A DNA stretch of 64,000 nt, from the NCBI GenBank assembly GCA_947488605.1, contig CANKZJ010000001.1, positions 496,001-560,000 of the forward strand, given 5' to 3'. Numbering within the stretch: the first letter of the stretch is position 1; the number at the start of each line of letters is the position of its first letter. The position numbers and the translations under genes were made by a program. The notes under the pieces are model-generated. The model saw only the letters and a list, made by a program, of their open reading frames with translations, did no database searches and was not told the DNA's origin. This DNA comes from an uncultured Paracoccaceae bacterium (GTDB lineage Bacteria; Pseudomonadota; Alphaproteobacteria; Rhodobacterales; Rhodobacteraceae). Positions 32 through 35,919 of the stretch are shown here, in pieces.

Positions 32-1424
32 CACGATCTCCCGCTCGACAGTGTTTCAGCGTGTTATTGCGTCTTGCGCCATCTTTGTGACGCTGTCCTT
101 GGCGGTGATCTGGACGGTTGGCCCGTTGCGCATTGCGCAAATCGAAGCGACCGAGCAACAGATCATCGATGACATCCTCGAAAGCGTGCCTTTTATCCGC
201 AATGACGGCGGCGAGGCTGGTCTGATCGCAGCCTACCGTTGGGACGACAACCGCGACGTTTGGACGGATGAGGATATCTTCGTCATTCTTGAAGACGAGG
301 ACACCTTGCTGGCTTACCGCGACGCCGACGAAAACATAACCGCCGGTTTTGATGGTCTCTGGGCAAGTGATGAACCAACTGAAACAGAACTCGATCATCC
401 TGAAATAGACCGCCCTGTCATCGCCAAAGGCATTTGGCTTGAAGACGGCAGTTCTGTGATTGCCGGACGGTTCGTCCCAGAACGCGTGTTCAATATCCAA
501 AGCTTCGTTGGGATATCTTCAATCGCGCTTATTGTCATCGTCATGCCCTTGGCCTTGCTGACAGGCTTCTTTCTAAGTCGAGGTGTGTTTCAACGGCTGG
601 AAACGTTGTGGGAAACGGCGGAAACCGTCTCAAAGGGTAGTCTGGATGCGCGCGCGCCACTCACCGGGTCGGGTGACGAATTCGACCGGTTAGGTGCGGG
701 CATCAACCAAATGCTGGATAAGGTCGAAGCGCTCACCCGTAACGTGGAAGCAGTCAGCGTCGGTGTGGCCCATGACCTCAAGACGCCGCTGGCTAATATC
801 GGCGGAAGGCTTGAACTGATCCGGCGTGATATCGACAACCCCATCGCTGTCGCCGAACACGTCGACATCGCCGAGGCACGTTTGCAAAGCCTTTTGCGGA
901 TTTTTGACGCTTTGCTACGGATGGGCGAGATCGAAACTGGAAAACGCCGCGCCGCGTTTCAGGCAGTCAATCTCAGCGCTCTTTGCGACGATATCGCCGA
1001 AAGTTTTGCCCCGCTGTTCGAGGAAGCGGACAAATCTCTCAAAGTCGCAGTTGCGCCAAACCTGACGGTCCAAGGCGACAGTGATCTGCTGACCCAATTA
1101 ATCGCGAACTTGCTGGAAAATGCGCTCGAACACTCTCGCGATGCGGCTCAAGCCCATATTGCGCTGCATGGCACGGACGGCATGATCTGCCTTGAGATCG
1201 GCGATGACGGCCCCGGGATCGCCCCGGGGGCAGCTGAGCGCATATTCGAGCGGTTTTTCCGCGCCGATGCCAGCCGGTCCACTGCAGGCAACGGGCTTGG
1301 CCTGTCATTGGTGAAAGCGATCGCTGATTTGCACCAAGCCGACATCGCTTTGTTGGAGGGTCGGACCGGTGCCGTTTTCGCGCTGCGTTTCCAGCCCGAC
1401 AGCGGATCATACAAAATCGTATGA
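18..1424 (+). CDS. Membrane sensor histidine kinase
   Basis: Two-component sensor of 468 residues. Membrane segments lie at about residues 14-36 and 162-187 and flank an acidic periplasmic sensor region of about 125 residues. A HAMP linker follows (about 187-240). The HisKA motif AHDLKTPLAN places the phospho-acceptor at His252. The ATPase domain has an N box (LIANLLENALEHS, about 361-373), G1 (DDGPGIAP, about 396-403) and G2 (GNGLGLSLV). The start is TTG at 18, chosen because it overlaps the end of the upstream regulator. The signal sensed is unknown; the downstream secreted DUF1800/DUF1501 genes are not obviously part of the same unit. Confidence 0.9.
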   Translation: MATLSTISRSTVFQRVIASCAIFVTLSLAVIWTVGPLRIAQIEATEQQIIDDILESVPFIRNDGGEAGLIAAYRWDDNRDVWTDEDIFVILEDEDTLLAYRDADENITAGFDGLWASDEPTETELDHPEIDRPVIAKGIWLEDGSSVIAGRFVPERVFNIQSFVGISSIALIVIVMPLALLTGFFLSRGVFQRLETLWETAETVSKGSLDARAPLTGSGDEFDRLGAGINQMLDKVEALTRNVEAVSVGVAHDLKTPLANIGGRLELIRRDIDNPIAVAEHVDIAEARLQSLLRIFDALLRMGEIETGKRRAAFQAVNLSALCDDIAESFAPLFEEADKSLKVAVAPNLTVQGDSDLLTQLIANLLENALEHSRDAAQAHIALHGTDGMICLEIGDDGPGIAPGAAERIFERFFRADASRSTAGNGLGLSLVKAIADLHQADIALLEGRTGAVFALRFQPDSGSYKIV

Positions 1425-32432: not shown

Positions 32433-33713
32433 TTATTCCATATGTTTGCGGATACGGTTCACCATGTACCAAACCAAACCTAGCACGATTGGCGTCGCAA
32501 TTGCCGCCATCGTGACCTTGCCGACACCAAAGGAATCCTCCAACGGGCCGGTCATATTCAGCACCAAATTGACCGCGTAATAACTGATTGCAACAACAGA
32601 CAAACCTTCGACAGTGCGTTGTAGACGAAGCTGGAGGTCAGCCCGTTTATCCATGCTAGTCAGCAATTCCTGGTTTTGAGCAGAGCGTTCAACGTCGACC
32701 CGCGTCCGCAACAAATCACCTGCGCGCAGCGCGCGATCAGACATCGCTTGCAGCCGCCCTTGCGTTGACTTGACCGTCCGCATTGCAGGATCAAACCGGC
32801 GCATCATGAATTCGCCAAACGTCTGTCTTTGCGCGAAACGGTCCTCTCGCAACACCAGAATGCGTTGGTTTACGATCGTCTCGTAAGCTCCTGTTGCGCC
32901 GAACCGAAATGACGATTGCGCGATGGTATTTTCGATCTCGGCCGAGACAGCAAGCAACTTATCCAGAACTTGCGCTGGATCTGCTTCTGCACCGCGCATA
33001 TCCTCAAGCAAACTGGTCAGGCGCATATCAAATTCACCCATCTTCGACCCCAGATCACGTGCGCGGTAAAGCCCAAGCATCGACATCGCCTTATAGGTTT
33101 CAATCTCGCACAAGCGCTGCACAACGCGGCCAACCCTGCGGTTCCCCACTTTAGGTCGTGCAAAAACGGCGAAACGCATGTGCCCTGTCGGATCGATCCG
33201 AAAATCCCCAGCCACGACCAAGTCGTTGCCAACCACCCGGCTGATTGCAAGGCTTTCTGGCACAAACCATTCTTCGGCCTTCTCGATGATGCCGTCGTCA
33301 CCATCCGCAACTTCAATACGGATCAAAGCGGATGTGACCCGTGTTCCGGGCGCCGTTTCCAGCCAGTCTTGCGGGAAAACGCCGAAGGTAGCGGCATCAA
33401 ACGGACGGTCTGCCAAGCCTTCGCCGAAAATCGTGTAGGTTACGAATTCGGTATGGCTTTCCCACTTCAGGTCATGTTTCCCGATTTTACCAAAGTAGTG
33501 CGTCGCATCTGGCTGCGGATGTTGCGCGCCAAAACGATCAAGCAATGCAATCAGATGTGCGCGATCCGCCTCACGATCACGGCCCGCCGCGTTTTCGGCA
33601 GGCTTGATTGCAAGGTAGGCGGCACGGCTAGGCGCATCGACGGCCGGGAACGGGCGCGCATGCAATTCATTCGCCATCGCATAGCGTAAGGGATGATCTT
33701 CAATGGGGGGCAT
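32433..33713 (-). CDS. DUF3422 family membrane-anchored protein
   Basis: A DUF3422 protein of about 426 residues. The frame is open from TTG 33776, but the family N-terminus (MPPIEDHPLRYAMANELHARPFP) starts at ATG 33713; ATG 33740 is another option. Conserved segments include HYFGKIGKHDLKWESHTEFVTYT and RVGRVVQRLCEIETYKAM. The C-terminal end carries two hydrophobic segments (about residues 360-382 and 395-415), giving a tail-anchored topology after a coiled-coil-like region rich in Arg and Gln. Function is unknown. Confidence 0.88.
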   Translation of the reverse strand: MPPIEDHPLRYAMANELHARPFPAVDAPSRAAYLAIKPAENAAGRDREADRAHLIALLDRFGAQHPQPDATHYFGKIGKHDLKWESHTEFVTYTIFGEGLADRPFDAATFGVFPQDWLETAPGTRVTSALIRIEVADGDDGIIEKAEEWFVPESLAISRVVGNDLVVAGDFRIDPTGHMRFAVFARPKVGNRRVGRVVQRLCEIETYKAMSMLGLYRARDLGSKMGEFDMRLTSLLEDMRGAEADPAQVLDKLLAVSAEIENTIAQSSFRFGATGAYETIVNQRILVLREDRFAQRQTFGEFMMRRFDPAMRTVKSTQGRLQAMSDRALRAGDLLRTRVDVERSAQNQELLTSMDKRADLQLRLQRTVEGLSVVAISYYAVNLVLNMTGPLEDSFGVGKVTMAAIATPIVLGLVWYMVNRIRKHME

Positions 33714-33839
33714 TGCTGCGCCTTTGCTAGTAGCTTTCATAGGCAAACTAACGGTGTTTCGACGCATGTAAACCAAAAATGTGTTAATTTATAAAGAGTT
33801 ACCGGCGTACAAACGTATACCGTACGCCGGTCGCTGTTC

Positions 33840-35012
33840 TTAAATTACAACCACATCCAGTGGCGGAAAGCCGTTAAAGCAGACAGATGAATAGGTTGAC
33901 GTATACGCACCAGTATTGCGGATCAGCACGCGGTCACCTGATTTCAGGGTCAATGGCATCGACACCGGCCGCTTTTCATAAAGCACATCCGCACTGTCAC
34001 AGCTTGGCCCCGCCAAAACGCACGGTCCCATTGGGTCGGCATCTCGCGCGGTTTGAAACTGGTAGCGGATTGCTTCTCCTTCGGTTTCCGCGAGACCTGA
34101 AAAACGGCCAATATCAAGATAGACCCAGCGATGCAGATCACGCTCGGATTTGCGGCTGACAAGCATCACTTCGGCAACGATCAGTCCGGCCTCGGCCACC
34201 ATGCCGCGGCCCGGTTCGGCCATGATTTTGGCCACGTTCGGAAAACGCGCTTCGACCAAGGCTATGACCTGTGCGGCGTACTGCGTCGGCGCCTCGATTT
34301 CTTCACCGTAGAAAGCGGGGAATCCACCGCCGATGTTGAGCAAGCTCAATTCATGGCCAGCGGTATGGGCAGCGGCCCAGATTTCTGCAAAAACGTCCAA
34401 AGTCGGCGCCCACATGGCGGCTTGGCGTGTTTGAGACCCGACGTGGAAGGAGAAACCAACCGGGTTCAAACCCAATGCTTTGGCTTGATCCAACAACGAC
34501 AGCGCCATGACACGGTCGCAACCAAACTTGCGCGACAAAGGCCAATCGGCCTGTGATAACTCTACAATCAGACGGATGTAGACGGACGCGCCCGGCGCAT
34601 GGATTGCAATTTTTTCCAGTTCTTCCTGTGCATCAGCGGCAAATAGCCGGATGCCTTGATCATAAGCCCATGCAATATCCGGAGCACGTTTGACAGTATT
34701 GCCAAATGAGATGTCCGAAGGCTCGGCCCCCTCTTCAAGGCAAAGTGCGATTTCCGCTTTAGATGCGGCATCAAAATGCGATCCCAAATCGACCAAGCGC
34801 GCGATGATCTGGCGTGCGGGGTTTGCTTTGACGGCATAATGGATGTCTGCGCGACCCAATCCAGCTTTCAATGCGCGATACTGTGTGGCCACGCGATCAA
34901 GGTCCATCACAAGGGTCGGACGATCAAATTGGCGCGCCGCAACAAAGCGGTCCAAGCGTGATTGGGGTTCAACAATTGGGAACGCCACATCGGGCGAAAA
35001 GTGCATCGTCAT
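33840..35012 (-). CDS. Ornithine/diaminopimelate-type PLP decarboxylase (ornithine decarboxylase)
   Basis: A 390-residue fold-III PLP decarboxylase, most like eukaryote-type ornithine decarboxylase, making putrescine. The PLP lysine is Lys62 in YAVKANP. FHVGSQ, the phosphate-binding glycine stretch NIGGGFP, MAEPGRG and the catalytic Cys in GPSCDSADVLYE are present. ATG 35012 is supported by GGAG seven bases upstream. It is preceded on the same strand by a 35-codon Arg-rich open frame and a hairpin that look like a translational control leader. Ornithine rather than lysine or DAP is inferred from family resemblance. Confidence 0.9.
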   Translation of the reverse strand: MTMHFSPDVAFPIVEPQSRLDRFVAARQFDRPTLVMDLDRVATQYRALKAGLGRADIHYAVKANPARQIIARLVDLGSHFDAASKAEIALCLEEGAEPSDISFGNTVKRAPDIAWAYDQGIRLFAADAQEELEKIAIHAPGASVYIRLIVELSQADWPLSRKFGCDRVMALSLLDQAKALGLNPVGFSFHVGSQTRQAAMWAPTLDVFAEIWAAAHTAGHELSLLNIGGGFPAFYGEEIEAPTQYAAQVIALVEARFPNVAKIMAEPGRGMVAEAGLIVAEVMLVSRKSERDLHRWVYLDIGRFSGLAETEGEAIRYQFQTARDADPMGPCVLAGPSCDSADVLYEKRPVSMPLTLKSGDRVLIRNTGAYTSTYSSVCFNGFPPLDVVVI

Positions 35013-35039
35013 TGGTCATCTCCAAAAGACCCGGCCATA

Positions 35040-35053
35040 ATGGGATTTCCCAT
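35040..35053 (-). promoter_or_regulatory. Hairpin between leader peptide and decarboxylase start
   Basis: ATGGG-ATTT-CCCAT forms a perfect short hairpin overlapping the last base of the leader stop codon and lying about 27 bases before the decarboxylase ATG. It could be part of an attenuator with alternative pairings. Confidence 0.45.
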
Positions 35054-35160
35054 CAAAGACCGCTCAGTTCCAAGGGAGACGTTACCGTCGCTACGTAAAC
35101 ACGTGTGCGTTGACTGATCACCGGCCAGAGGCGCGTGCGTTGGCGTCTATATTTGCGCAT
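35053..35160 (-). CDS. Candidate arginine-rich leader peptide of the ornithine decarboxylase gene
   Basis: A 35-codon frame, ATG 35160 to TGA 35053, ends 40 bases before the decarboxylase start. The peptide begins MRKYRRQRTRLWPVISQRTR and ends LELSGL; it has seven Arg and one Lys, most in the first 20 residues. A weak AGG lies five bases before the ATG. E. coli speF is controlled by an Arg/His-rich ornithine-sensing arrest peptide, and alphaproteobacterial decarboxylase genes of this family carry the structured speF leader RNA motif, so a similar role is proposed. It may instead be a stand-alone small basic protein. Confidence 0.5.
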   Translation of the reverse strand: MRKYRRQRTRLWPVISQRTRVYVATVTSPLELSGL

Positions 35161-35258
35161 AAGCGCCTGTTTGAGATTCGTTGCAAGAGGGAAAATGCAT
35201 CGAAACGAAAATGCATATGACCATGGACGAAACTGCATAACTCGCGGTAGGCAGTGCC

Positions 35259-35801
35259 ATGTCACGCGTGATCCTTCTTAACAAACCATTTGGTGTTCTG
35301 TCGCAGTTCACTGACGTCAAAAGCCCCACGCCACGCCCGACCCTGTCGGCCTTTGTTGATGTGCCGGATGTCTACCCTGCTGGCCGCTTGGACCGCGATA
35401 GCGAAGGGCTGTTGGTGTTGACCGATGACGGTAAACTGCAAGCGCGCATCGCTGATCCCAAGAACAAGATGAGCAAGACTTATCTGGTGCAGGTGGAAGG
35501 CGCGCCCACGGACAAGGACCTGCAAGGTCTACGTGATAGCGTGACGCTGAAAGACGGTCCGACCCGCCCAGCAAAGGTCCGGCTGATTGACCCGCCGCAA
35601 CTCTGGGACCGTGATCCGCCCGTGCGTTTTCGCAAATCCGTACCAGATGCTTGGATTGAGATCACACTCAGCGAAGGACGCAACCGGCAAGTCCGCCGTA
35701 TGACGGCCCACATCGGGTTCCCGACATTGCGGTTAGTGCGGTGGCGCATCGGCAACTGGACGCTGGATGGGATTGAAAGCGGCGCTTGGATCGCTGGCTA
35801 G
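35259..35801 (+). CDS. rluE: 23S rRNA pseudouridine synthase, RluE type
   Basis: A 180-residue RsuA/RluE family pseudouridine synthase lacking an S4 domain, as RluE does. RluE modifies U2457 of 23S rRNA. The catalytic Asp45 lies in [19 protein letters not shown], and the family motifs [11 protein letters not shown] and [23 protein letters not shown] are present. It diverges from the decarboxylase leader and precedes a tRNA-Leu gene on the other strand. Confidence 0.92.
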
Positions 35802-35832: not shown

Positions 35833-35919
35833 TGGTGCGGTCGGGGGGACTCGAACCCCCACGAGTGTTACCTCACAGCGACCTCAACGCTGCGCGTCTA
35901 CCAATTCCGCCACGACCGC
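35833..35919 (-). tRNA. tRNA-Leu (anticodon GAG)
   Basis: Reading the minus strand gives an acceptor 5' GCGGTCG pairing with CGACCGC, D-arm with AATTGGTAGA, anticodon stem CAGCG/CGCTG enclosing loop TTGAGGT (anticodon GAG), a long class II variable arm, and T-loop GGTTCGAGTCC. Discriminator A and an encoded CCA follow (35833-35836). The long variable arm and anticodon identify leucine CUC/CUU decoding. Confidence 0.96.

Follow-up and report, generated by a model that had tools for sequence, protein, structure and literature searches.

The Locus

The stretch of DNA analysed here, the window (64,000 nt from an uncultured Paracoccaceae bacterium), carries on its minus strand the gene of an ornithine decarboxylase (ODC)-like enzyme, which starts with an ATG at 35012. 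The leader of this gene, about 140 nt long when counted from the putative transcription start, overlaps the letters of a short open reading frame (ORF). This ORF runs on the minus strand from an ATG at 35160 to a TGA at 35055–35053, encodes 35 amino acids of which seven are Arg, and ends 40 nt before the decarboxylase ATG. An inverted repeat of seven pairs (TGATGGG-AAAT-CCCATTA, 35055–35038, minus strand) extends across its stop codon, and the decarboxylase ATG is preceded by GGAG (35023–35020, minus strand). A first-pass annotation had pointed out the ORF, the gap, the hairpin and the GGAG, and all four were confirmed in the letters. Its interpretation was that of a sensing arrest peptide or a ribosome-mediated attenuator. 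Comparison with related genomes suggests another one: a conserved RNA, able to fold so that the ribosome-binding site is hidden, accounts better for these letters than an Arg-rich peptide gene does. The element is read here as a structured, riboswitch-like translational leader for polyamine synthesis at the decarboxylase gene, a reading to which a probability of roughly 0.6 is given.

The decarboxylase is predicted to be a pyridoxal phosphate (PLP) enzyme of the ornithine/diaminopimelate/arginine decarboxylase family, its substrate being likewise a prediction; the best match among solved structures is the lysine/ornithine decarboxylase 2plj (E = 4.2e-54). The parts of the leader are collected in Table 1, in which P1 is the outer stem of the core and OFF denotes the alternative hairpin.

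Table 1. Features of the decarboxylase locus (positions in the window)
Feature	Position	Strand	Basis
ODC-like PLP enzyme, 390 aa; gene presumed to be controlled	33840..35012	-	Pfam PF02784/PF00278
Arg-rich ORF, 35 codons; present as letters, judged to be no conserved gene	35053..35160	-	Frame and conservation tests
Putative -35 element TTGCAA	35181..35186	-	TTG at a like distance before block A in relatives
Putative -10 element CTTATG; includes the ORF's ATG (35160-35158)	35158..35163	-	Conservation; 17-nt spacer from TTGCAA
Aptamer-like core (R1 match); begins within a few bases of the putative transcription start	35075..35148	-	Covariance model R1
Conserved block A, AGACGCCAACGCACGCGCCTCTGG, with P1 5' strand GACG (35147-35144)	35125..35148	-	Conservation
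Between-block stretch with variable apical stem-loop	35095..35124	-	Block spacing varies
Conserved block B, GTAGCGACGGTAACGTCTCC; CGTC (35081-35078) is the P1 3' strand	35075..35094	-	Conservation; P1 covariation
Alternative (OFF) hairpin	35014..35086	-	Consensus folds of A1 and A5; minimum-energy folds
Inner hairpin CGGTC/GGCCG of the OFF stem	35032..35062	-	Two-sided changes in A5
Shine-Dalgarno region GGAGATGACC	35014..35023	-	GGAGA invariant in 26 loci

Reading Frame Tests

A search with the peptide of the ORF gave matches in 35 of 198 Rhodobacteraceae genomes (the family hereafter), and a decarboxylase homologue adjoined the match in 27 of the 30 loci fetched. An alignment of 27 loci revealed two blocks, A and B, that are identical or nearly so in all of them, while the frame between the blocks shifts and stop codons intervene. 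To escape the bias of a peptide search, 296 family genomes were scanned with a covariance model (R1), which yielded 103 matches in 103 genera. The frame tests use the 101 elements that could be anchored by a letter pattern, two elements without a pattern match (L245 and L261) being left out. The conservation figures refer to 100 of the 103 elements, picked and aligned by the model.

It was found that the spacing between the blocks is distributed over the three frames almost uniformly (40/31/30 in 101 genera, chi-square p = 0.41). An ATG in the frame of the window leads an open frame through block A in 34/101 and through both blocks in 9/101; if GTG and TTG starts are counted too, these numbers become 54/101 and 11/101. 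The three codon positions are conserved to 0.98/0.99/0.96 in block A and to 1.00/0.95/1.00 in block B, which means that synonymous positions are not freer than the others. Frameshifts occur even within the genus: three of six same-genus matches were inspected, of which L270 and L272 are put out of frame by one base missing between the blocks and L273 stays in frame. Furthermore, the ATG of the ORF makes up the last three bases of the putative −10 hexamer, so the start of the ORF may be untranscribed.

The leader-peptide reading was rejected on these grounds, namely the frame spacing, the few open frames, the third positions, the frameshifts within the genus and the position of the ATG. No amino-acid-level conservation was found among relatives, which is half of what the first-pass annotation itself had named as speaking against a peptide. 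The arrest peptide SpeFL of E. coli lies upstream of an ornithine decarboxylase gene and acts as a peptide; the relatives of the window element differ from it in lacking conservation at the peptide level. A SpeFL-like peptide that arrests or attenuates on ornithine or arginine must be considered very improbable: the ORF is real and Arg-rich, and its frame is kept through both blocks in the nine genera mentioned and in L273, but the other 92 of 101 genera lose it. To judge from the alignments, the conserved object is the RNA letters and not the ORF.

Architecture of the Leader

Of 101 Rhodobacteraceae elements, 100 have a TTG that starts 36–41 nt ahead of block A, and hexamers resembling a −10 box (CATATG, TAAATG and similar) are present at the same place in the 27 aligned loci. 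A generic consensus promoter scan called no promoter on the leader strand, and the promoter TTGCAA/CTTATG is a putative one deduced from conservation. The core matches R1 with 84.1 bits (E = 4.4e-19, the R1 alignment including the window sequence). Per-position conservation in block A is 0.96–1.00, except for the first (0.87) and last (0.70) positions; in block B, 18 of the 20 positions reach 0.98–1.00, and the remaining two 0.71 and 0.72. The spacing between the blocks ranges from 28 to 70 nt across 27 loci. Complementary changes in the apical stem-loop were noticed by eye in the alignments and were not counted.

The CGTC of block B serves twice, since together with 35077–35075 it also forms the anti-Shine–Dalgarno (anti-SD) strand. 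In the OFF hairpin, GGT (35086–35084) is paired with ACC (35016–35014) and CGTCTCC (35081–35075) with GGAGATG (35023–35017). The inner hairpin of the OFF stem is enlarged in the window by the hairpin at the ORF stop, an insert of a type that occurs in some relatives only.

A divergent pseudouridine synthase gene (35259–35801) is located upstream of the leader, and a tRNA gene (35836–35919, minus strand, 55.4 bits) lies beyond it. On the other side, the decarboxylase gene is followed by that of a DUF3422 protein (32433–33776, minus strand like the decarboxylase).

Association with the Decarboxylase in Rhodobacteraceae

Among the same 296 family genomes, R1 was found in 103 and an ODC gene (E up to 1e-70) in 104, with both present in 102; like all presence counts from the genome scans, these are lower bounds, as the best first-look candidates per genome were scored. 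The 102 pairs are each on the same contig and strand, with element and gene 31–123 nt apart (median 49; Fisher p = 1.8e-76). The more general part of the first-pass annotation, a regulatory leader of a polyamine gene, is supported: the RNA precedes the decarboxylase across the family. In named genomes, at least 117 exact matches to the two-block pattern were counted, of which 114 are directly upstream of an ODC gene and three are cut by the end of the locus. The titles of the matches listed are mostly of genera that we take to belong to the Rhodobacteraceae, with a few others, e.g., Pseudovibrio exalbescens and two Nitratireductor metagenome-assembled genomes.

Three exceptions were seen. Genome G588 has an element (L261, about 580–690, minus strand; R1 E = 8.7e-10) before a decayed remnant of an ODC gene, recognizable by a 19-aa match, and the element of G074 is divergent. 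The ODC gene of G053 (L264) is preceded by an element with a degenerate block A and a block B that has lost CGACGGTAAC. Its anti-SD, inner hairpin and SD segments are kept, and this looks like a natural loss of the aptamer.

Relation to ar45 and speF

The first-pass annotation had also proposed a link to the speF RNA motif. In the form of a match to the Rfam model this link failed: a covariance search around the leader gave no Rfam match in 801 nt at E up to 5, and the speF model RF00518 found nothing in the window, in its own genome or in 20 related loci. The same holds for ar45, also named alpha-r45 or smrC45 (RF02347), which was sought in the window, in 20 related loci (E up to 1) and in the own genome. 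Over the whole window, only a tRNA reaches its Rfam gathering score, and the 20 related loci gave three weak unrelated matches, none of them at the element. What stands of the link is that, among known RNAs, the speF element of alphaproteobacteria appears to contain the nearest relative, namely its 5′ domain.

This relationship was recognized through ar45, which gave matches in 10 of 241 class genomes. In nine of these loci (L034–L042), where the match exceeds the cut-off, a decarboxylase of about 50% identity lies downstream; L043, the tenth, stays below the cut-off and has none. The core of ar45 aligns with the window element, and the two share the letters CGCACGYGCC and GACGG (joint alignment A3 and class alignment A4). 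The outer stem GCCC/GGGC of ar45 corresponds to GACG/CGUC here, and the change is compensatory at two of the four pairs. As the family-only model R1 barely sees ar45 (one weak match, E = 0.3), a joint model, R2, was built; R1 and R2 each match the own genome once. RF00518 was found in 3 of 96 class genomes, and in all three loci Rfam places ar45 directly before it. According to the excerpt of Corbino 2005 (PMC1273637), the speF element starts near a putative transcription start and continues into a base-paired stem. Given that ar45 directly precedes RF00518 in the scanned loci, this stem is taken to be the ar45 domain. The window element would then be a divergent relative of ar45 and of the speF 5′ domain that matches neither Rfam model.

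The window element resembles ar45 in its core letters, in a homologous P1 and in its place 5′ of ODC. It differs from ar45 in that the 3′ U-tract after the outer stem is missing (there is no T-run of 4 or more) and in that the core is joined to an SD-pairing hairpin instead of the speF domain. As for speF, Corbino 2005, as excerpted, likewise describes the leader of a homologous alphaproteobacterial decarboxylase gene, but the construct used was 400 nt long as compared with the short leader here. Greenlee 2018, as reported in the excerpt of PMC7266159, added conserved parts to the speF motif, and part of the ar45 link may therefore already be in print.

Relatives across the Alphaproteobacteria

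With R2, matches at E up to 0.01 were obtained in 65 of 337 class genomes. Outside the family there were 71 matches. The polyamine gene that follows them first codes for ODC in 42 cases, for a second decarboxylase (DEC2) in 13 and for homospermidine synthase (Hss) in 6, and is speD-speE in 1; the other 9 have none. A polyamine gene therefore follows 62/71, or 56/65 without the six training sequences, all of which stand before ODC. The nine without such a gene, all kept in the 71, include two that run off the contig (L320, L341) and seven weak ones (L327, L339, L343–L346, L349; E 1e-4 to 8e-3, core letters lacking by eye) that look like noise. Hss was identified by PDB 4plp (E = 5.6e-176) and Pfam, speD and speE by NCBIfam, and DEC2 by Pfam and PDB. 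Two or three R2 matches were present in each of eight genomes, one match being noise-like in two of these. Rfam did not detect the element in any of 20 class-wide loci (E up to 0.1). Starting from the genes, an R2 match lies within 2.1 kb upstream of 49 of 131 ODC genes outside the family, and re-examination of 60 of the other 82 added 13 elements, all on the ODC strand. The presence of relatives before several polyamine genes suggests an unrecognised, widespread genetic switch in alphaproteobacteria.

A T-run of 4 or more follows the core in 47/68 matches outside the family versus 8/101 within it. Reports on alpha-r45 from S. meliloti, B. bacilliformis and M. sporium (excerpts of PMC2573895, PMC7717549 and PMC12403871) describe a small RNA (sRNA) that may be, or is, independent of the speF leader; in B. 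bacilliformis it is reported to be separate from that leader. If the element were mainly a trans-acting sRNA, its place before odc would be secondary. Besides the rarity of the T-run in the family, the ODC gene that follows the core after a median of 49 nt and the polyamine genes behind 62/71 class-wide matches, needless for a free sRNA, make this improbable. A different proposal has about an even chance in our estimation: alpha-r45 would not primarily be an sRNA but would stand at the edge, in rhizobia, of a riboswitch family that spans the class. Its members, about 58–75 nt long (longer with a large apical loop), would sense a polyamine-pathway metabolite and control odc, hss, the second decarboxylase and speDE through clade-specific platforms, namely a U-tract terminator in many clades and SD sequestration in Rhodobacteraceae.

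Several side observations were made in the class-wide loci. At L310, L312, L325, L326, L330, L333, L334, L335 and L348, the RNA precedes the gene of a second ODC-like PLP decarboxylase, after which comes Hss or ODC; this second decarboxylase is 29–34% identical to the window ODC where aligned and 52–62% (L312, 87%) to that of L310. Genome G707 has one copy before speD-speE (L342) and another before ODC (L293). Block-B-like letters without a block A match are present upstream of ODC at L357 and L410, possibly further divergent members. A mini-palindrome, UCC-U-run-GGA, recurs after P1 in class-wide leaders (e.g., L289, L352, L293) and might either compete with P1 as a hairpin or belong to the terminator. 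Rfam additionally reported a tRNA in these loci, and miRNA-family matches on both strands at L289:2903-3053, below the cut-offs, where a palindromic repeat is probably located.

Covariation, Folding and the Proposed Switch

The pairing of P1 was examined in the class alignment A4, for which 85 chosen loci were given and 84 matched; matches taken as noise and some near-duplicates were left out. In its 83 distinct rows, two-sided changes occur at all four pairs of GACG/CGUC. Over the 8-pair structure, two-sided change is seen in 43 cells, 40 of which belong to P1; shuffles give 6.5 such cells and slid controls no more than 8. Overall, 97.8% of cells pair in the 84 aligned matches, of which 14 come from the training alignment of R2. 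A model-free test gave a P1 stem score of at least 4 in 76/81; in shuffles this count averaged 59.6 and did not exceed 70. These paired changes across clades, together with the variable apical stretch and the complementarity to the ribosome-binding site, are features of an RNA. They leave little room for an operator or promoter element that is conserved as DNA and recognised by a transcription factor. Such an element would fit the conservation of letters and the position of block A just downstream of the putative promoter; its probability is put as low as that of the peptide.

The strand GGUAACGUCUCC is able either to close P1 through its CGUC or to pair with GGAGAUGACC, which contains the SD site, so that two pairings share one strand. 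That the two folds would exclude each other is backed by this shared strand and by energies, and not by covariation of the SD stem. When P1 and two inner pairs were imposed on 92 of the 101 elements (nine were skipped), the mean probability of an unpaired SD rose from 0.06 to 0.58, and exposure increased in 90/92. Minimum-energy folds of the single sequences shown favour the OFF fold, the outer GGT/ACC pairs being missing in 1/20. Its inner hairpin has two-sided changes at four pairs in A5, an alignment of 20 of 94 3′ domains picked by length and difference, with the enlarged hairpin form excluded. (Alignment A1 is without L025, and A2 without L006 and L025.)

In the proposed mechanism, the first ~74 nt of the 5′ leader RNA of the decarboxylase mRNA would form a small aptamer-like core, homologous to the ar45/speF 5′ domain and consisting of P1, short inner pairs and a variable apical loop. 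When the CGUCUCC strand leaves P1, it would pair with GGAGAUG in a long bulged hairpin, the SD would be hidden and little translation would take place; when P1 is formed, the SD would be free. Most of the other clades sampled have a U-tract after the core, and folding of the core would act on transcription termination there. As the platforms differ, one core appears to drive both kinds.

A number of results weigh against this interpretation. A4 was fitted to a model and made from chosen loci, so its covariation leans in favour; in the model-free test the highest shuffled mean stem score was 4.63 versus 4.60 observed, and this test is only moderately in favour. Of five measures taken on the joint alignment with ar45, two did not surpass those of shuffles. 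The SD part of the OFF stem has no two-sided change within the family (RNAalifold on A1; A5), although for RNAalifold on the family alone this follows from a core that is nearly invariant. Folding of the whole leader was not clearly better than that of shuffles in six sequences (z −1.5 to +1.4). The rise in SD exposure with P1 imposed is partly by construction, because forcing P1 removes the anti-SD strand, and imposing P1 costs a mean of 5.9 kcal/mol (range 0.3 to 14.5). The element is known for only 62/131 ODC genes outside the family, 60 of the 82 negatives having been re-examined, and many ODC genes are therefore without a detectable element. The polarity poses a conflict as well, as P1 would free the SD here and complete a terminator elsewhere: with P1 as the bound state, a ligand would turn translation on here and transcription off in the other clades. 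This may point to a flip of polarity or to a bound state assigned wrongly. Finally, the A. tumefaciens speF leader bound none of six compounds, including ornithine, putrescine and spermidine, as stated in the excerpt of Corbino 2005 (PMC1273637).

Ligand or Protein

Features common to riboswitches are present: a conserved aptamer-like domain in a 5′ untranslated region (this placing depends on the putative promoter), and several functionally related genes behind the same RNA. Ornithine is not known to be a substrate of the enzymes encoded by hss and speDE, and the common denominator of the genes is consequently polyamine synthesis rather than the use of ornithine. Since relatives precede odc, hss, the second decarboxylase and speDE, the RNA would sense polyamine status, most likely by binding a metabolite of the polyamine pathway. 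The compounds tested by Corbino 2005, as far as the excerpt gives them, do not include homospermidine and other pathway metabolites. Homospermidine, or another ligand outside that list, is a possible candidate for clades with hss. The genome of the window had no Hss or SpeE match (in a search without a positive control in that genome), and homospermidine can thus not be the only answer.

The negative binding tests would also be explained if the two folds were the same but their balance were set by a polyamine-responsive RNA-binding factor, a protein or a trans-acting sRNA, that reads the leader. The very high conservation of letters would fit with this, as would the co-precipitation of S. meliloti alpha-r45 with Hfq, cited in the excerpt of PMC7717549. 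On the other hand, the same compact core before different polyamine genes, sometimes two or three times per genome, is common for riboswitches, and homospermidine and other pathway metabolites are absent from the excerpted compound list. A factor that reads the leader is therefore regarded as unlikely, though far more credible than the peptide, operator or free sRNA.

Comparison with Known Leaders and Significance

The odc1 motif (Brewer 2021, PMC8632094) is likewise an alphaproteobacterial ODC leader in which the ribosome-binding site is sequestered. It has paired UUG starts two nt apart, a conserved 11-codon upstream ORF and a pseudoknot from the 5′ end to a loop. The window ODC, in contrast, starts at ATG (an in-frame ATG lies within 42 nt of the expected ODC start in 27/27 aligned loci) and no conserved upstream ORF was found, which sets it apart from odc1 as described. 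The spermidine riboswitch that is a variant of SAM-I (Salvail 2023, PMC10853860) is, as excerpted, similar in being an RNA leader on polyamine biosynthesis genes and different in its Gram-positive hosts, its SAM-I fold and its use of transcription termination. No SAM family of Rfam matched in the window, in 20 related loci or in 20 class-wide loci. In the same excerpt, its authors expect more polyamine riboswitch classes.

A search of the literature for a polyamine, homospermidine or speF riboswitch returned nothing recognisable as this element, and polyamine, ornithine, spermidine and speF do not occur in the main text of two non-coding RNA surveys (PMC11109978, PMC6429828). As far as the literature was searched, the Rhodobacteraceae branch with its SD platform, the class-wide minimal family and the link to hss, DEC2 and speDE are new.

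Since 2005, speF has remained an orphan among regulatory RNAs, and alpha-r45 is an sRNA without a clear function. Joining both to a wider family at polyamine genes would turn them into one testable system, for which the Rhodobacteraceae version, compact and with an anti-SD platform attached, would make a good construct for ligand screening. If the interpretation is true, alphaproteobacteria would possess a polyamine-class switch that is unrelated to the SAM-I-variant spermidine riboswitch, itself a narrow variant described in 2023.
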